Source of the DNA: Bacteroidales bacterium
GTDB taxonomy: Bacteria; Bacteroidota; Bacteroidia; Bacteroidales; P3
Length of the DNA: 64,000 nucleotides
Direction: 5' to 3'
Assembly (NCBI GenBank): GCA_017429685.1
Contig: JAFROL010000027.1
Coordinates: 1-64,000 of the forward strand
The position numbers and the translations under genes are program-made. Below are positions 2,346-22,077 of the stretch, in pieces; position 1 is the stretch's first letter; each line of letters begins with the position of its first letter. A model generated the notes under the pieces. The model was not told where the DNA came from. It did no database searches and saw only the letters and a list, made by a program, of their open reading frames with translations.

Positions 2346-3266
2346 ATGAACATCATCACCATCAACGACCTCGAACGTCCCGAACTGGATGTCTATGCGC
2401 GACTTACGGAGGCGCAGCTGCGCAACCGCCTCGAGCCAGACAAGGGCATTTTCATCGCCGAAAGCCTGAAAGTGGTGCGAATAGCACTCGAAAACGGCCT
2501 GCGCCCCCTGTCGTTCCTCGCCGAGCAGAAATACATCGACGAGCAGATTGCGCCGCTCTTTGCCCGCTTCGGGCTCGACGACGGCACGCCCGTCTACACC
2601 GGCCAGCGCGAGGTGCTGGCCCGCCTTACGGGATACGAGCTGACGCGCGGCTTCCTCTGCGCGATGCACAGGCCGCAGCTGCCCAGCGCCGAGGAGCTGT
2701 GCCGCGGACGCCGCCGCATAGCGGTAATGGACAGCGTGGTCAACTCGACCAACACCGGCGCCATCTTCCGCGCCGCCACGGCCCTGGGCATCGAGGCCCT
2801 GCTGCTCACCCCCACCTGCTGCGACCCCCTGAACCGTCGCAGCGTCCGCGTCAGTATGGGCACCGTCTTCCAGATGCCGTGGAGCTATATTGGGAAGTTA
2901 AGGGAAGTTAGAGGGAAGTTAAGGGAAGTTAGAGGGGAGTTAAGGGAAGTTAGAGGGGAGTTAAGGGAAGTTAGAGGGGAGTTAAGGGAAGTTAAGGGAC
3001 AAATGAATTATATATCCGCAATTAAGGGGTTTGGTTTCACCACCGTGGCACTGGCCCTTAGCGACAAGTCCGTCAGCATCGACGACCCTGTGCTGCAGGG
3101 CATCGACCGGATGGCGATCGTTATGGGCACCGAAGGCGACGGCCTGTCGACGGAGGTCATAGCCGCCTGCGACTACACCGCCAAGATCCCTATGCAGCGC
3201 GGTGTCGACTCGCTCAACGTGGCCGCCGCAGCCTCCGTGGCCTTCTGGCAACTCAGGGCTCTTTAG
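2346..3266 (+). CDS. TrmH/SpoU-family RNA methyltransferase with an in-frame repeat insertion
   Basis: This is a 306-residue SPOUT-class 2'-O-ribose methyltransferase, expected to modify tRNA or rRNA using SAM. The N-terminal substrate-binding part includes QLRNRLEPDKGIFIAESLKV. The knot-domain motifs follow: SVVNSTNTGAIFRAA, IVMGTEGDGL near residue 258, and PMQRGVDSLNVAAA near 285. The start fits the family N-terminus and sits right behind a -7 box. The oddity is five copies of a seven-residue unit (GELREVR-like) at about residues 183-217, between the conserved PWSYI and GFTTVALAL segments, where a short loop is expected. The exact RNA target cannot be told. Confidence 0.9.
   Translation: MNIITINDLERPELDVYARLTEAQLRNRLEPDKGIFIAESLKVVRIALENGLRPLSFLAEQKYIDEQIAPLFARFGLDDGTPVYTGQREVLARLTGYELTRGFLCAMHRPQLPSAEELCRGRRRIAVMDSVVNSTNTGAIFRAATALGIEALLLTPTCCDPLNRRSVRVSMGTVFQMPWSYIGKLREVRGKLREVRGELREVRGELREVRGELREVKGQMNYISAIKGFGFTTVALALSDKSVSIDDPVLQGIDRMAIVMGTEGDGLSTEVIAACDYTAKIPMQRGVDSLNVAAAASVAFWQLRAL
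2892..2996 (+). repeat. Five 21-bp tandem repeats inside the SpoU gene
   Basis: Five consecutive 21-bp units (2892, 2913, 2934, 2955, 2976) are each built from variants of gggaagttaa or ggggagttaa plus gggaagttaga. The 21-bp length keeps the frame and yields the heptapeptide GELREVR/GKLREVR. The purine-rich strand differs from flanking codon use, so this looks like an expanded microsatellite. Confidence 0.9.
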
Positions 3267-10311: not shown

Positions 10312-10409
10312 AATGCCGACCGATACAATTGACTACAAAAGACTTTAATATATATACATATAATTATACTGACGCAAACATAATACAAACAAAAAATAAA
10401 AAGCAAGCA

Positions 10410-11885
10410 ATGAAACTGACAGACATACTGAAAAGAATTGAGTACCAAGCCTACTGCGAAGGGAAAGCGTGCGCTGCCGACAACAGGGAGGTGAGCTGTA
10501 TTACCTTCGACTCGCGTAAGGTTGGCGAGGGTACTATGTTCGTAGCTCAGAAGGGGGTGCACGTCGACGGTCACGCATACATAGCAATGGCCATAGAGAA
10601 AGGCGCTAAGGTGATAGTCTGTCAGGATGTGCCCGCCGAACAGCCTAAGGGAGTGCTGTTTCTGCAAGTGGCCAATAGTGATGTGGCACTGGGGCTGGCC
10701 GCCGACAACTTCTACGGCAACCCGTCGAACAAGCTGCAGCTGATAGGCATCACCGGCACCAACGGCAAGACCACCACCGTGACACTACTGCACAGAATGA
10801 TGCGCAAGATGGGGCTGAAAGCAGGCCTTATCTCCACCATTGTGAACCGCGTCAACGACGAGGAGATTGCCGCAACACACACCACTCCCGATGCCGTAGA
10901 ACTCAACTCACTGCTGGCGCAAATGGTCGAGAAAGGCTGCGAATACTGTTTTATGGAGGTGAGCTCGCACGCCATCGTGCAGAACCGCATTGCCGGACTG
11001 CGATTTGCCGGAGCCATTTTCAGCAACATCACCCACGACCATCTGGATTTCCACGGGACTATGGCCAACTACATAGCCGCCAAGAAGGCTCTGTTCGACA
11101 GCCTGCCCGAAGAGGCTTTTGCACTGACAAACATCGACGACAAGAACGGACGCGTTATGGTGCAGAACTGCAAAGGTCGCGTGAAGACCTACAGCCTGCA
11201 AACGGTGGCAGACTTCAGATGCAAGATACTGGAAAGCAGCATCCACGGGCAGCACCTGGAATTGAGCACCAGCGACGGGAAAAGAGAGTTCTGGACACCG
11301 CTGGTAGGCCGTTTCAACGCCTACAACATCACCGCCATAGCAGCCACCGCCGTCCTGTGCGGCTTCGCCATCGACGAGGTGCTGCGCGTGTGCAGCAGCC
11401 TCAGCGCCGCCCCGGGACGCTTCCAATACCTGCACGGCAACGGCAAGACAGCCATCGTCGACTATGCCCACACACCAGATGCACTTCAGAACGTGATAGA
11501 CACCATCAACGAGGTGCGCTCCAAGAGCCAGAACCTGATTGTCGTCGTTGGATGCGGCGGCGACCGCGACCCGCTGAAGCGCCCCATTATGGCACGCATA
11601 GCGGCCGAAGGCAGCGACCGCCTCATACTGACCTCCGACAATCCACGCACCGAAAATCCCGACAGCATTTTGGACCAGATGGAAGGAGGCCTCACCGCCG
11701 AACAGCGCTCGGCGACCGTGCGCATCAGCGACCGACGCCAAGCCATAAAGACTGCGGTGATGATGGCTCGCGAGGGCGACATCATCCTGATTGCCGGCAA
11801 AGGCCACGAGACATACCAGGAAATCAACGGCGTGCGTCATCATTTCGACGACCGCGAAGAAGCAAACAAATTATTAAACCAATAA
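10410..11885 (+). CDS. murE: UDP-MurNAc-tripeptide synthetase MurE (meso-diaminopimelate type)
   Basis: This 491-residue Mur ligase adds the third residue to UDP-MurNAc-L-Ala-D-Glu using ATP. The P-loop is GITGTNGKTTT. The motif DNPRTENPD near the C-terminus is the DNPR signature for meso-diaminopimelate. I chose the ATG at 10410 (MKLTDILKRI), because the 27 residues before it are low-complexity and unlike the family. All three Mur-ligase domains are intact, in contrast to the neighbouring murD relic. Confidence 0.96.
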   Translation: MKLTDILKRIEYQAYCEGKACAADNREVSCITFDSRKVGEGTMFVAQKGVHVDGHAYIAMAIEKGAKVIVCQDVPAEQPKGVLFLQVANSDVALGLAADNFYGNPSNKLQLIGITGTNGKTTTVTLLHRMMRKMGLKAGLISTIVNRVNDEEIAATHTTPDAVELNSLLAQMVEKGCEYCFMEVSSHAIVQNRIAGLRFAGAIFSNITHDHLDFHGTMANYIAAKKALFDSLPEEAFALTNIDDKNGRVMVQNCKGRVKTYSLQTVADFRCKILESSIHGQHLELSTSDGKREFWTPLVGRFNAYNITAIAATAVLCGFAIDEVLRVCSSLSAAPGRFQYLHGNGKTAIVDYAHTPDALQNVIDTINEVRSKSQNLIVVVGCGGDRDPLKRPIMARIAAEGSDRLILTSDNPRTENPDSILDQMEGGLTAEQRSATVRISDRRQAIKTAVMMAREGDIILIAGKGHETYQEINGVRHHFDDREEANKLLNQ

Positions 11886-11897
11886 AAACGAAGAACT

Positions 11898-13151
11898 ATG
11901 CTATACTATCTATTCACTTGGTTGGACGAAGCATTCAATTTGCCTGGAGCAGGAGTGTTCCAGTACATATCGTTCCGCGCCGCTATGTCTGTAATAACAT
12001 CGCTGATCATAATGCTCATCTTCGGCAAGCCGTTCATCAAATGGCTGCGCAAGAAACAAATCGGCGAGACTGTACGCGACCTTCACCTCGAAGGCCAGAA
12101 AGAGAAAGAAGGCACTCCGACAATGGGAGGCCTGCTCATTCTGGCGGCCATCGTCATCCCCACCCTGCTGTTTGCCAAGCTCGACAACATCTATGTGCTG
12201 ATAATGCTCGGAACAACACTGTGGCTGGGACTGATAGGCTTTATCGACGACTATATCAAAGTGTTCAAAAAACACAAAGAGGGCCTTCGCGGCAAATACA
12301 AAATCATTGGCCAGGTGACGCTGGGCATCGCCGTAGGTCTTCTGATAATGTACCATCCCGACATCACCATCAAAGAGACTTCGTCGGTAGAGAACTACGT
12401 TGCCTCGCACAATGTCAACATTGAAGGCAACTACGAGCGCGCCAAGAGCGAATTCTCGCAAAATCCCGTCAAATCGACCAAGACGACCATTCCTTTCGTC
12501 AAAAGCAACGAACTTGACTATGCCAAAATCATCACCTGGATGGGCGACTGGGCCAAGAACTGGGTCTGGCTGGTGTATGTGGTCGTTGTGATTCTTGTGG
12601 TTACAGCAACCTCGAACGGTGCCAACCTTACCGACGGCATAGACGGGTTGGCGACAGGCACGTCGGCAATCATTGGCGCCACACTGGCTATACTGGCTTG
12701 GGTGTCGGGCAACATCATATTTGCCAACTACCTGAACATAATGTTCTTGCCAAACATCGGCGAGCTGGCCATTTTCATCACCGCCTTCGTCGGTGCCACG
12801 CTGGGTTTTATGTGGTTCAACTCGCACCCTGCCGAAATCTTTATGGGCGACACCGGCTCGCTGGCCATCGGCGGCATCATCGCCGTCTTTGCCCTTCTGA
12901 TTCGCAAGGAACTTCTGCTGCCCATACTGTGTGGCATATTCCTGATGGAAAGCCTCTCGGTCATCATCCAGACGACGTACTTCAAATACACCCGCAAAAA
13001 ATATGGTGAAGGTCGCCGCGTCTTCCTGATGGCTCCGTTGCACCACCACTACCAGAAAAAAGGAATCAAGGAGGAAAAGATAGTCACCCGCTTCTACATC
13101 ATCGGCATCCTGCTGGCCATCATCAGCATCGTGACACTGAAACTCAGATAA
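11898..13151 (+). CDS. mraY: Phospho-MurNAc-pentapeptide translocase MraY
   Basis: This 417-residue polytopic enzyme transfers phospho-MurNAc-pentapeptide to undecaprenyl phosphate, making lipid I at the inner membrane. Signatures include [13 protein letters not shown], the acidic [28 protein letters not shown] and HHHYQKKG. About 60 extra residues (near 160-225) relative to E. coli MraY are usual in Bacteroidota. It is 12 bp after murE, so co-transcribed. Confidence 0.97.
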
Positions 13152-13226
13152 CCCACCAAAGCATACATCACCCCAAAAACCAAAACAACCGAATACTTCC
13201 AATCATAAATAAAACATCTTTGAAAT

Positions 13227-13772
13227 ATGTACGAAACAATAGTAAATCAAGCTAGCGAAAAAGTCCACACCGGATTGGCAGGCATCGACAGCTCCAAACT
13301 GAAAAAACTGAGAAGTGCCCATCTTAAAGCCTGCTTCAGCCTAATCGACGAGATGCGCCACAAACTGGAGTTTGTAGCCCGCATCAAGGGTGTGTCGTTC
13401 ATCGACGATGCCGCCTCACGCAGCCCAATGTCCACTTGGTACGCCCTCGAGACCGTCGACGGCAAGGTCGCCTGGATTGCCAACGGCGCCGCCGCCGGCA
13501 TTGCCAAAGCATCGGAGTTCAAACGCCTGCGCGCACTGGTCGAAAGCAAGGTGAGAATGATCATCTGCCTTGGCGACAGCGAGCTGTATGTCAATACCTT
13601 TGGCGACTTGACAAACAACATCATACAGGTCGAGACTATGGAAGAAGCCGTCCACAAAGCTTTCTACAGCAGCGACGAAAATATGAAAGTGCTCTTCTCG
13701 CCGGCAATCGAAAACGGCATCTCGTACGAAACACAAGGCGAATCTTTCAAACACGAAGTCAACGAACTCTAA
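13227..13772 (+). CDS. Orphan MurD C-terminal-domain-like protein (N-terminal and central domains missing)
   Basis: This 181-residue ORF sits exactly where murD belongs (mraY-murD-ftsW). From about residue 47 it aligns by eye with the MurD C-terminal domain: RHKLEFVARIKGVSFIDD for the usual EHRLE...INDSKATN start, then STWYAL and a late LFSPA. The UDP-binding and ATP-binding domains (roughly 260 residues with the GTNGKTT P-loop) are absent, and the 75-bp gap upstream holds no trace of them. The motif NDSKATN has become DDAASRS, losing the lysine, and the D-Glu-binding segment after SPA is changed and shortened. It cannot be a MurD ligase alone. The frame is intact with normal codon use, so it may be a retained scaffold protein. 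Confidence 0.8.
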   Translation: MYETIVNQASEKVHTGLAGIDSSKLKKLRSAHLKACFSLIDEMRHKLEFVARIKGVSFIDDAASRSPMSTWYALETVDGKVAWIANGAAAGIAKASEFKRLRALVESKVRMIICLGDSELYVNTFGDLTNNIIQVETMEEAVHKAFYSSDENMKVLFSPAIENGISYETQGESFKHEVNEL

Positions 13773-15044
13773 ATGGTGACGAACAGAGACAACATATCAC
13801 GCAAACTGCTGAATCCGTTCAAGGGAGACAAAGCCGTATGGTTCATCTTCCTTGTGCTGGCCATCATATCGCTGGTGTCGGTGTTCAGCTCCATCGGCTA
13901 TCTGGCAGCATCTACCGACAAGACACCCGAATCGGTATTTATGCGCCATCTGACGTTTGTTGTCTTGACGTTCTTTGTCGTCATCATCCTATCCAATTTC
14001 AACTATCGGCGTTTCTCCGGACTCTCGTGGCTCGGATATCTCGTCTCGCTGGCATTGCTGGTGGCGGTATTTGTCGTAGGACACAAAAGCAACGAGGCCG
14101 GTTCGGGAATGAGCCGCTGGCTGGAGCTCCCCATTGTGGGACAATTCCAACCGTCGGAGTTGGCAAAAATCGTGATGGTCATCTACTTGGCTCGTCTGCT
14201 CACGCAGGAGAAAGAGAACCTGAAAGAATGGATCACGCTGCGAAACATTATGATTCCAGTGATGCTGCTCATAATGCTTGTGGTGTCCGAAAACCTCTCT
14301 ACGGCGCTCATTATCTTCATCGTATGTTTCACGATGATCAGGCTGGCACCTATCAACGTAAACCACTGGCGACTGACGATACTGGGACTGATAGCTTTCG
14401 CCGCTTTGGCCCTGATGATTGGCAACAAGTTCGACATCCCCTTCCTCGCACGTTCAGGAACCTGGAGCAGCCGCGTGGACAAATGGTTGCATTTCGACCC
14501 CAACGAACTCACACAGGAGTCGATGGCACGTATGGCTGTGGCCACAGGCAAATTTTTCGGCGTCGGCATCGGTTCCACCATCCAAGCCCGACTGATGACA
14601 CAGGCCAACAACGACCTCATCTATGCCATTATCATAGAAGAAAGCGGTATGCTTGGCGGAATCATCGTATTCCTGCTCTATACCTACCTTTACGTACGAT
14701 GTATCAAGATTGCACTGAAATGCAGAGGAGATTTTGGGCGAATGACTGTCATAGGCCTTGGAACACTGATATTCCTTCAGGCAGCAATCCATATGAGCGT
14801 TTCGGTAGGTGCTTTGCCCGTCACGGGACAGACGCTGCCGCTCATCAGTTCGGGAGGTACCGCCTATATGTGTATGGGTCTCGCACTGGGCGTCATTCAG
14901 TCAGTAGCCTACGACAACAACCTGACCGAAGCTAAAGAAAAACGCGCCGCAGCACAATCGACCGCAAGCAAAAGCAACAACGTTCCAACGACAGAACACA
15001 AAGGAAACAGTGAGACCATTGAAGAAGACAAAAGAGGTCAGTAG
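13773..15044 (+). CDS. ftsW: Septal peptidoglycan glycosyltransferase FtsW (SEDS family)
   Basis: This 423-residue protein with about ten membrane segments polymerises glycan strands from lipid II together with FtsI. SEDS hallmarks are MSRWLELPIVGQFQPSELAK and, near the end, LPVTGQTLPLISSGGTAY. Its ATG immediately follows the stop of the murD-like ORF, so the two are translationally linked. The polar C-terminal tail (about 380-423) is cytoplasmic and low in complexity. Confidence 0.96.
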   Translation: MVTNRDNISRKLLNPFKGDKAVWFIFLVLAIISLVSVFSSIGYLAASTDKTPESVFMRHLTFVVLTFFVVIILSNFNYRRFSGLSWLGYLVSLALLVAVFVVGHKSNEAGSGMSRWLELPIVGQFQPSELAKIVMVIYLARLLTQEKENLKEWITLRNIMIPVMLLIMLVVSENLSTALIIFIVCFTMIRLAPINVNHWRLTILGLIAFAALALMIGNKFDIPFLARSGTWSSRVDKWLHFDPNELTQESMARMAVATGKFFGVGIGSTIQARLMTQANNDLIYAIIIEESGMLGGIIVFLLYTYLYVRCIKIALKCRGDFGRMTVIGLGTLIFLQAAIHMSVSVGALPVTGQTLPLISSGGTAYMCMGLALGVIQSVAYDNNLTEAKEKRAAAQSTASKSNNVPTTEHKGNSETIEEDKRGQ

Positions 15045-15127: not shown

Positions 15128-16306
15128 ATGAAAGCAATAATTAGCGGAGGAGGCACTGGAGGACACATCTTTCCTGCCATTGCCATAGCCAATGCCATCA
15201 AGAAACGATGGCCCGACGCCGACATCCTTTTTGTCGGTGCCGAGGGGCGTATGGAGATGGAGAAGGTGCCTGCCGCAGGCTACGAGATAAAAGGGCTGCC
15301 AATAGCAGGACTGCAGCGCAAACTGACGATCCGGAACATCATCAAAAACCTGCAACTGCCGTTCAAAATGATACGCAGCCGCAAAAAGGTCAGAAAAATC
15401 ATTGCCGATTTCCGACCCGACATCGTGGTTGGCGTCGGCGGATTCGCCAGCGAGCCAACACTCAAGGCCGCAGCCGCAATGGGCTACCCCACCCTCCTGC
15501 AGGAGCAGAACTCATATGCCGGCCTGACAAACAAGATGCTTGCCCAGGGCGCTCGCACAATCTGCGTGGCCTACGACGGAATGGAGCGATTCTTCCCGAA
15601 AGAAAAAATCGTCTTCACAGGCAATCCCGTCCGCGACATCATCGAGAACATATACAACGAAGTGCCGCAGCGTTTCGAAGGCACCCTCGGCGAAGCAAAA
15701 ACACTTGCCGAAAACAGGACCAGGACACAAGGATTGGAGCATTTCGGCCTCGCTGCGGACAAACGGACCGTACTGTCGGTCGGCGGCAGCCTCGGTGCCG
15801 GTTCTATCAACAGAATGATTCTCGACAACATCGAGTTCTTCAAGCAGAACGACATCCAACTGCTGTGGCAAACCGGTAAAGGTATGTACGAAGAGGCTTG
15901 CGAGAAGGTGAAAGAATCCGGGTGCGGGAATCTGGTCAAGGTGCACCGTTTCATCAACGAAATGGATATGGCATATCGTGCCGCCGACGTAATCATCTCA
16001 AGAGCAGGCGCAATAGCGATTTCCGAACTGTGCATCGTTGCAAAACCGGTAATCCTTATCCCCTCGCCCAATGTGGCCGAAGACCATCAGACGAAGAACG
16101 CTATGGCCCTTGTGGAAAAGAACGCGGCCATTATGGTTCGCGACAGCGAATGCCACGAAAAAGGACTCGAGACCCTGCTGGACCTTCTCAACGACAACGA
16201 CCGTATGGCAGCGATGGGAAAGAACATCAAGCAACTGGCACGTCGCAAAGCTGCCGACAGAATCGTTGACGAAATCAAAAAAATAACAGAAAAACAGACT
16301 ATATGA
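15128..16306 (+). CDS. murG: UDP-GlcNAc:lipid I GlcNAc transferase MurG
   Basis: This 392-residue GT28 glycosyltransferase converts lipid I to lipid II on the inner leaflet. It begins with ISGGGTGGHIFPAIAIA. Later motifs include GVGGFASEPTLKAA and, in the C-terminal domain, SVGGSLGAGSINRM plus SRAGAIAISEL. It is about 25 residues longer than many homologues, owing to an insertion near residues 178-203 (EVPQRFEGTLGEAKT...) between the two lobes. It overlaps murC by 4 bp (ATGA). Confidence 0.96.
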   Translation: MKAIISGGGTGGHIFPAIAIANAIKKRWPDADILFVGAEGRMEMEKVPAAGYEIKGLPIAGLQRKLTIRNIIKNLQLPFKMIRSRKKVRKIIADFRPDIVVGVGGFASEPTLKAAAAMGYPTLLQEQNSYAGLTNKMLAQGARTICVAYDGMERFFPKEKIVFTGNPVRDIIENIYNEVPQRFEGTLGEAKTLAENRTRTQGLEHFGLAADKRTVLSVGGSLGAGSINRMILDNIEFFKQNDIQLLWQTGKGMYEEACEKVKESGCGNLVKVHRFINEMDMAYRAADVIISRAGAIAISELCIVAKPVILIPSPNVAEDHQTKNAMALVEKNAAIMVRDSECHEKGLETLLDLLNDNDRMAAMGKNIKQLARRKAADRIVDEIKKITEKQTI

Positions 16307-17706
16307 ACTACTATTTTCTTGGCATAGGAGGCATTGGGATGAGCGCGCTGGCGCGATTCTTCAAACTTGGCGGGAACACCGTCAGCGGCTACGACCGTAC
16401 GCCAAGCCCACTGACCAGCCAACTCGAAGCCGAAGGCATCAGCATACACTACGACGACAATCCCGACCTGATTCCCGACGGCATCGACCTGGTCGTATAC
16501 ACACCTGCCGTACCAAAGGACACACGCGAATTCCAGCACCTTGAGCAGAGCGGCGTCCCGATGAAGAAAAGGTCGCAGGTGCTCGGCGAACTGACACGCG
16601 GCAAAAAATGCATTGCCGTAGCCGGATCGCACGGCAAAACCACCACTTCGACTATGATAGCCTATCTGCTGAGCAAGACCGACATCGGATGCAGCGCATT
16701 CCTCGGCGGCATTTCGAAGAATTTCGACAGCAACCTGCTGGTCAACAACGAAAGCCCGTATGTCGTCGTCGAAGCCGACGAATACGACCGCTCCTTCCTG
16801 CAACTCCACCCCTACTATTCGGTCATCACAGCCACCGACCCCGACCATCTCGACATCTACGGCACCCACGAAAACCTCATACAGGCTTTCCAGCAGTTCG
16901 CCAACCAGACCAATCCCGAAGGAGCCCTCTTCCTGAAGGAGGGACTTGCCGGGCACGACCATCACCATCACGACGAAGACGAAGGCGAGGATGAGCACGA
17001 GCACGAACATCACCTGAAAATCAGCGAGGAAATCAAATGTTTCTCCTACTCGGCACGCTCCATCGAACCCGACTTCTACGCCATCAACGTCCGCAACTAC
17101 AACGGCAACATATACTTCGACCTCCGCACACCCGACAAGGTGCTCTACGACATCGAGTTGCAAAACTCCTGCCTCTACAATGTCGAGAACGCTGTCGCCG
17201 CTTCCGCAGTGGCTCTGGCCTGTGGACTCGACGAGTACCAACTGCGCTACGGGCTGAAGACCTTCGCCGGCATCCGCCGGCGCTTCGACGTGCGCGTCAA
17301 AACCAAGGACGTCGTCTATATCGACGACTATGCCCACCACCCAAAGGAGATTGCCGCCACCATCGAGTCCATCAAATACCTCTATCCCGACAAACGCATC
17401 GTAGGCATCTTCCAACCGCACCTCTACACACGCACACGCGATTTCGCCGACCAGTTCGTCGATGCCCTCAAGCCCCTCGACGAAATCATCCTTATGCCCA
17501 TCTACCCGGCCCGCGAGAAACCGATACCCGGCATCTCGTCGGGGATGCTGCTGCGCAAGATGGACACAATGAACAAATACCTCTGCAGCGCCGACCAGGT
17601 ACCCGACTTGGTCGAAGCACTCTGCCCCGATGTTGTCGTCACCCTTGGCGCCGGCGACATCGACCGCCTCGTACCAGTACTCGAACAACGCTTAAAAGAA
17701 GAATAG
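16303..17706 (+). CDS. murC: UDP-MurNAc:L-alanine ligase MurC with a His-rich insertion
   Basis: This 467-residue Mur ligase makes UDP-MurNAc-L-Ala. It has the N-terminal GIGGIGMSALARFF, the P-loop AGSHGKTTTS near residue 108, VEADEYDRSF, and the C-terminal DDYAHHPKEI. All catalytic domains are intact. An unusual feature is a His/Asp/Glu-rich segment at about 217-237 (HDHHHHDEDEGEDEHEHEHH) in the central domain, a likely surface loop that could bind Zn or Ni. It is translated by 4-bp overlap with murG. Confidence 0.95.
   Translation: MNYYFLGIGGIGMSALARFFKLGGNTVSGYDRTPSPLTSQLEAEGISIHYDDNPDLIPDGIDLVVYTPAVPKDTREFQHLEQSGVPMKKRSQVLGELTRGKKCIAVAGSHGKTTTSTMIAYLLSKTDIGCSAFLGGISKNFDSNLLVNNESPYVVVEADEYDRSFLQLHPYYSVITATDPDHLDIYGTHENLIQAFQQFANQTNPEGALFLKEGLAGHDHHHHDEDEGEDEHEHEHHLKISEEIKCFSYSARSIEPDFYAINVRNYNGNIYFDLRTPDKVLYDIELQNSCLYNVENAVAASAVALACGLDEYQLRYGLKTFAGIRRRFDVRVKTKDVVYIDDYAHHPKEIAATIESIKYLYPDKRIVGIFQPHLYTRTRDFADQFVDALKPLDEIILMPIYPAREKPIPGISSGMLLRKMDTMNKYLCSADQVPDLVEALCPDVVVTLGAGDIDRLVPVLEQRLKEE

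Positions 17707-20241: not shown

Positions 20242-22077
<1,836 letters not shown>

Follow-up and report, generated by a model that had tools for sequence, protein, structure and literature searches.

The murD slot of the division and cell wall (dcw) gene cluster of a Bacteroidales bacterium (assembly GCA_017429685.1, contig JAFROL010000027.1; the window analysed here comprises positions 1–64,000 of the forward strand) holds an intact 181-codon open reading frame (ORF), placed between mraY and ftsW, which encodes the C-terminal domain of MurD and a short segment preceding it, but no other part of the enzyme. On balance, we favor the explanation that this gene specifies a retained, folded protein that is not a ligase and that probably serves the Mur/lipid II machinery as a docking or scaffold component, following a switch in the D-glutamate (D-Glu) route. 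The role of the leftover MurD piece is most likely structural rather than chemical. Reduction of murD to its last third seems to have happened several times, in many gut and rumen Bacteroidales, after its task had passed to another enzyme pair.

Residue numbers used below are those of Escherichia coli MurD, assigned via alignment with 1e0d; Lys115, Glu157, His183, Lys198, Arg302, Asp317, and Ser415 are MurD residues with catalytic or substrate roles. The sequence-only reading of this stretch had placed only a MurD C-terminal domain in the slot, and profile searches agree: the MurD model TIGR01087 matches residues 40–179 of the short protein on model positions 301–440 only (E = 1.1e-20), at 74.1 bits against a whole-protein ligase cut-off of 211.95, and the Pfam Mur_ligase_C match (E = 1.2e-5) lies slightly below its cut-off. 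The uridine diphosphate (UDP)-binding and adenosine triphosphate (ATP)-binding domains (P-loop, Glu157, His183, and Lys198) are absent from both the ORF and the 75-bp gap downstream of mraY, where in-frame translation inspected by eye revealed no MurD remnant, again as previously stated. Because the C-terminal domain of E. coli MurD comprises residues 300–437 (PMC4816537, in its available text), the short protein additionally retains about 40 residues from the end of the central domain, and it begins with, or close to, a Met that is internal in full-length MurD.

The short protein is predicted to adopt the fold of the MurD C-terminal domain (mean predicted local distance difference test score, pLDDT, 81.5), with AlphaFold2 (AF2) block means of 45–60 for residues 1–40, and the comparison with MurD structures that had been proposed earlier placed MurD at the top of the ranking in both Foldseek and VIA-align. 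By alignment with E. coli MurD, the motif NDSKATN reads DDAASRS, with Ala at the Lys319 position. Lys348 has been lost, as has the Ser415/Leu416 stretch, where there is also a 3-residue deletion. The loss of the Lys and the altered, shorter segment after SPA had both been noted by eye, and both hold. In these alignments, the C-terminal domain therefore lacks the catalytic and substrate residues Lys319, Lys348, and Ser415 expected of a MurD, although Asp317 (Asp61 of the short protein) and Ser410-Pro411 are retained.

The genome itself (52 contigs, 96% complete) contains only one MurD match above cut-off, on contig C35, in a 925-amino-acid protein that fuses an N-terminal MurL-like epimerase to a C-terminal MurD2-like ligase (L008:19-2748). 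This protein matches TIGR01087 (E = 1.1e-88) and the MurL model NF041275 (E = 7.6e-70, 235.6 bits, model positions 57–392). The latter is a Xanthomonadales model with a curated NCBIfam cut-off of 700 bits, which was reached neither by the C35 protein nor in any of the 98 genomes with a match (0/98); the MurL-like part is, however, linked to MurD2, here by fusion, in a genome where MurI was not found. A phmmer search of the PDB with the MurL part gave no match at E 0.1. In the available text of PMC8788868, Xanthomonas MurD2 has Glu197 and Arg358 at the places of MurD Asp182 and Lys348, and a double reversion of these residues results in D-Glu specificity. Both L-Glu determinants are present in the C35 protein (NLYQEHLD and GGFNRG). 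More broadly, 24 loci were inspected for MurD2 and MurD2-like proteins were obtained from 23, all of which (23/23, C35 included) have Glu before the His corresponding to E. coli His183; Arg occupies the Lys348 place in 22 of the 23, again including C35, the remaining one (G071) being unmatched by the search expression. The fetched MurD2-like proteins carry a C-terminal domain of their own, with SP and NDS/DDS motifs.

Judged by gene content, the MurD2-like part of the C35 protein is a predicted L-Glu ligase, and D-Glu would result from L-Glu ligation followed by epimerization; since the MurL–MurD2 fusion is present and MurI was not found, the whole D-Glu step appears to have switched route. 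It had been suggested that D-Glu ligation must be carried out by a murD elsewhere or by another ligase, and a search of the rest of the genome had been recommended. As suggested, a full MurD homolog does exist elsewhere, but it is the MurD2-like ligase that forms one protein with the MurL-like epimerase. Seven proteins of the genome have a Mur_ligase_M match, namely MurE, MurC, MurF, a MurF-Alr, an Mpl/MurC-like protein, FolC, and the MurL–MurD2 fusion; since all are assigned to other proteins, a split MurD with its missing parts elsewhere in this genome was rejected. The two MurF-type ligases among them (C18, C45; L013, L014) are a 481-amino-acid MurF above cut-off and a MurF–alanine racemase fusion.

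Across the genus, MurI was found in none of 59 genomes, MurL in 53 (in G019 as a piece only), and a MurD homolog above cut-off in 52. Frames of at least 890 codons with fused MurL and MurD2-like matches occur in 13 of the 53 genomes with MurL, the present one included. In the sister genus g42, frames of 885–921 codons with a MurL match were seen in three genomes.

The same short gene is found in every genus assembly that holds mraY (56/56). No mraY match was found in the three remaining assemblies, which also lack the short gene, and therefore all 56 judgeable genomes keep it. A relative is also encoded on 59 named contigs of uncultured Bacteroidales/Bacteroidetes genomes, many with ruminant gut in the title, and 58 of these (114 sequences gathered minus 56) have an ATG-started ORF of 500–600 nt. 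Among the 63 short genes of the first sample, mraY lies upstream in 63 and, under a strict coordinate rule, ftsW downstream in 62, so the remnant is indeed kept in the dcw cluster as had been claimed. A frameshift or mis-assembly is rejected by the 56 assemblies, the synteny, and the named contigs, and, as regards the other objection that had been foreseen, a full-length murD at this site in strains of the same species, all 56 genus assemblies have the short gene.

The check for purifying selection proposed earlier gave ratios of nonsynonymous to synonymous substitution rates (dN/dS) of 0.048–0.156 in close pairs, with a median of 0.079 (Nei-Gojobori, 10 reciprocal pairs with dS up to 1.0, drawn from 87 distinct genus sequences among the 114 gathered), which supports purifying selection on the short gene. 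Distant pairs, at saturation, gave a median of 0.40 and values as high as 0.70 below a dS of 1.5, and a codon-model omega of about 0.07 had kappa at its bound; neither was used. Residues have decayed unevenly: all 92 aligned short proteins keep Asp317 and 91 of them Pro411, but only 21 have Lys319 and no more than 15 have Lys348. In the genus of the present genome, the catalytic Lys residues have been lost and Asp317 remains. Family f1 (n = 59) has Asp317 in 59, Pro411 in 59, Lys319 in 3, Ser415 in 6, and Lys348 in at most 8, and the other families (n = 33) have 33, 32, 18, 24, and 7, respectively. Three short genes (G063, G097, and G182) still contain the three signature stretches, as expected if the truncations were recent. 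Within the genus, the entropy of arm residues 14–44 is 1.19, vs. 1.59 for the whole domain.

Our survey sample comprised 295 genomes from the order Bacteroidales, in which MurL was found in 98 and MurI above cut-off in 178, with no genome having both; 19 of the MurL genomes have weak racemase matches only (E 3e-12 or worse). This suggests, by gene content, that about one third of the sampled Bacteroidales may use the MurL route to D-Glu. The 98 MurL genomes divide into 37 with short murD only (19 families), 52 with full murD, and 9 unclassed, and short and full genes both occur within eight families. The unclassed genomes include one with a contig edge (G110), two with matches near contig starts whose sequences were not fetched (G153 and G165), three with weak mraY matches only (G078, G187, and G294), one whose contig breaks off as a full murD starts (G218), and the two f78 genomes, in which mraY sits outside the dcw cluster. 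An apparent MurD fusion in an 865-codon frame of G093 proved wrong, the part before MurD being an unrelated open frame.

To judge from the trees, truncation must have occurred several times. On an mraY tree of 124 rows, the short/full label requires 14 changes, eight of them forced by starred branches; with the long branches removed (118 rows, leaving out f101, f16, G129, and G066), it requires 14, seven of them forced. In these trees, f1 was reduced to 15 rows (12 of the genus and 3 of g42), and G321 and G110 (contig edges) and G300 (short C-terminal domain with an insert) were dropped. A single short clade, and with it a single origin of the short gene, is rejected, as its log-likelihood is 281 lower (approximately unbiased, AU, test p = 8.8e-5; 43 short rows, f101 and f16 left out). 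The earlier picture of one relic in one lineage consequently gives way to short genes in 19 MurL families. By contrast, MurL presence changes only three times on the 118-row tree, which omits f101; in the 124-row tree, this long-branched MurL family is placed apart from the main MurL clade. MurL thus looks old in the clade, and the truncations later and several. However, a tree of the C-terminal domain alone has 10 changes, only two of which are forced by starred branches, and the number of truncations could be lower if lineages have exchanged parts of the dcw cluster.

Between mraY and the start of the short gene lie a median of 39 nt in f1 (59 genes) and 23 nt in the other families (33 genes), compared with 6 nt between mraY and full murD (69 genes); starts were picked by rule, and those of the short genes are putative since some short ORFs stay open upstream. 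Such short distances indicate that the two missing domains are gone rather than frameshifted. The Met that is internal in full MurD stands at the first model column (alignment A1) of one or more short ORFs in 16 of the 19 families, and the start is offset or unclear in f2, f35, and f55. This internal Met is present in the full murD of 50 of 52 genomes with MurL and 24 of 27 without. The 20 bases 5′ of it are 47% A against a gene background of 33% in MurL genomes (36 vs. 30% without MurL), although this A-richness may reflect local amino acids and is only suggestive as a test for an internal start. It is conceivable, if rather doubtful, that Bacteroidales murD is an old two-product gene, whose internal ATG yields a short non-catalytic protein, and that deletions from the murD start to the internal ATG were tolerated or favored after MurD2/MurL took over; this would explain why nearly the same short protein is found in the same slot of separate lineages.

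Taken together, the sequences show that, in a large Bacteroidales clade in which MurI is missing, MurL is present, and a MurD2-like ligase occurs where looked at, the dcw murD has lost its UDP- and ATP-binding domains in many lineages, leaving the C-terminal domain and the stretch ahead of the hinge as a protein of its own, which keeps the fold and is under purifying selection but, in this genus, lacks residues that MurD catalysis requires. A second, non-catalytic duty of MurD might reside in this C-terminal part, most likely docking in a cytoplasmic assembly of Mur enzymes, MraY, and MurG (and possibly MreB), which the short protein would still perform, and the conserved N-terminal arm, having no central domain to pack on, would be the likely contact. 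Docking is favored because MurG and MreB of Thermotoga maritima bind MurD, MurE, and MurF, which do not bind one another without MurG or MreB (PMC6420597, PMC4929429, in their available text), and because the conservation of an arm that no longer has a domain to pack on points to a contact surface. As had been suggested, the short protein may bind MraY, MurG, or FtsW.

Several observations count against this docking hypothesis. All 52 full murD genes of the classed MurL genomes keep the ten residues checked (Lys115, Glu157, His183, Lys198, Arg302, Asp317, Lys319, Thr321, Lys348, and Ser415), so the idea that these genes are already inactive was wrong; they look active although MurI was not found in these genomes, and the presence of MurL alone does not free MurD. 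The two f78 genomes (completeness 91 and 73%) yielded no murD and no short gene, indicating that the domain is not needed everywhere. Conversely, G073 has a short gene with MurL, MurD2, and MurI not found, and six genus genomes (G012, G017, G018, G035, G040, and G051; completeness 92 and 96% in two of the six) have a short gene without a MurL match, most also without MurD2. Further, the short gene evolves faster than mraY and ftsW, and the arm is surpassed in conservation by residues 45–76, which have an entropy of 0.97.

Some of these genomes have other unusual features. In f78 (L324, L325; G239, G135), the mraY found away from the dcw cluster has a CMP-KDO synthetase-like gene (by eye) as its neighbor, and in G239 MurL and mraY are on the same contig. 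G073 (L055; 2.1 Mb, 98% complete) has only four Mur_ligase_M matches and possibly a reduced peptidoglycan route. G300 (68% complete) has a short gene without a MurL match, and this gene (L245; 269 amino acids in total) is broken in frame by repeat-like inserts.

Alternative to docking, the short protein might be a trans subunit or regulator of MurD2–MurL or its product, such as a Glu-sensing or hand-over subunit. The domain it retains is the amino-acid-binding domain of Mur ligases (PMC4816537), and short genes are associated with MurL (37 of the 89 MurL genomes that could be classed vs. 1 of 28 MurL-less genomes classed for frame length among the matches listed; Fisher p = 6e-5 with kinship ignored and G300 left out). 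However, we consider such a role improbable, since the MurD2-like proteins have that domain themselves, 52 MurL genomes lack a separate short gene, and the Glu-binding residues decay in the short proteins. A ligase split into two halves, with the N-terminal and central part supplied in trans, would give the conserved arm a central domain to pack on, but with every Mur_ligase_M match of this genome lying in another protein and Lys319, Lys348, and the Ser415 stretch lost here, it seems highly unlikely.

Two further alternatives give the protein itself no function. The gene might be kept for its expression, as a translated spacer coupling mraY to ftsW, as the tight spacing would allow (TAA followed by the ftsW ATG, with the short distances from mraY given above). 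Such a spacer needs no conserved protein, so the low dN/dS, the kept fold, and the near invariance of Asp317 and Pro411 leave little probability for it. Still less plausible is a functionless, decaying relic or an assembly or frameshift artefact: faster evolution than the neighbors and lost catalytic residues are what decay would produce, yet the gene is intact and syntenic at 56 of 56 judgeable genus loci and recurs on the 59 named contigs, close pairs have a dN/dS of about 0.08, and nearly all loci have neither room for nor a remnant of the missing 800 bp.

The features of the locus are given in the table. The short gene ends with TAA, directly abutting the ftsW ATG at 13773. As the sequence-only reading had stated, murE, mraY, murG, and murC are intact, and their scores exceed the NCBIfam cut-offs; ftsW matches TIGR02614 with E = 1.5e-67, below the cut-off of that model. 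Elsewhere in the window, an ORF at 2346-3266 (+) resembles an RNA methyltransferase by eye and includes an in-frame run of the repeated unit REVRGKLREVRGELREVRGELREVRGELREVKGQ, probably an expanded tandem repeat, and the ORF that by eye takes the place of ftsZ (20242-22077, +; 611 amino acids) has a long acidic C-terminal extension.

Table. Short murD-derived gene and its neighbors in the dcw cluster (positions in the window).
Feature	Position	Strand	Remarks
Stand-alone MurD C-terminal-domain gene, murD slot of dcw cluster	13227..13772	+	ATG start, 181 aa
Codons 1-44: start and N-terminal arm	13227..13358	+	Homologous to last segment of MurD central domain
Part of short gene 3′ of N-terminal arm	13359..13769	+	
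Codons 60-66, DDAASRS in place of NDSKATN	13404..13424	+	By alignment
Gap downstream of mraY, 75 bp	13152..13226	+	No remnant of MurD domains 1 and 2 by eye
mraY	11898..13151	+	Neighbor, source of tree; over NCBIfam cut-off
ftsW	13773..15044	+	Neighbor; TIGR02614
murE	10329..11885	+	Neighbor, intact; TTG opens ORF at 10329, ATG at 10410
murG	15128..16306	+	Neighbor, intact; over NCBIfam cut-off
murC	16303..17706	+	Neighbor, intact; over NCBIfam cut-off

Compared with known systems, the short protein shares its fold with MurD, to which it is homologous (E = 1.1e-20); its gene occupies the same place between mraY and ftsW, and the stretch ahead of the hinge, the Ser-Pro turn, and Asp317 are retained. 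It differs in having no UDP- or ATP-binding domain, in lacking Lys319, Lys348, Ser415, and Leu416, and in a start that coincides with, or falls close to, a Met inside MurD. The C35 protein has both domains of the MurD2/MurL pathway of Xanthomonas oryzae and its two L-Glu determinants, likewise with MurI not found, but here the enzymes are fused, MurL being N-terminal and MurD2 C-terminal; a leftover murD C-terminal domain is not described in the available text of PMC8788868. That text gives Gammaproteobacteria, Alphaproteobacteria, and actinobacteria as taxa with MurD2/MurL, and the available text of PMC5808125 extends the list to weak relatives from a fungus, cyanobacteria, and an amoeba, with Bacteroidota mentioned in neither. 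Mur enzymes can be fused or scaffolded, as in MurE-MurF of Bordetella and with MurG as a scaffold (PMC6420597, in its available text). Those cases resemble ours in that Mur enzymes are assembly parts beyond catalysis, but they involve active enzymes rather than a non-catalytic domain alone. We found no description of a stand-alone MurD C-terminal domain, or of MurL in Bacteroidota, in the open-access literature.

For genome annotation, the short gene would be taken for a broken murD. The MurL route in Bacteroidales bears on inhibitors directed at MurI. Since Mur ligases are essential, it is difficult to test whether they also have a structural duty beyond catalysis. Here, catalysis seems to have moved to MurD2/MurL while one MurD domain stays, making the short protein a natural separation-of-function protein, and sister pairs with short and full genes within one family could be used for experiments.
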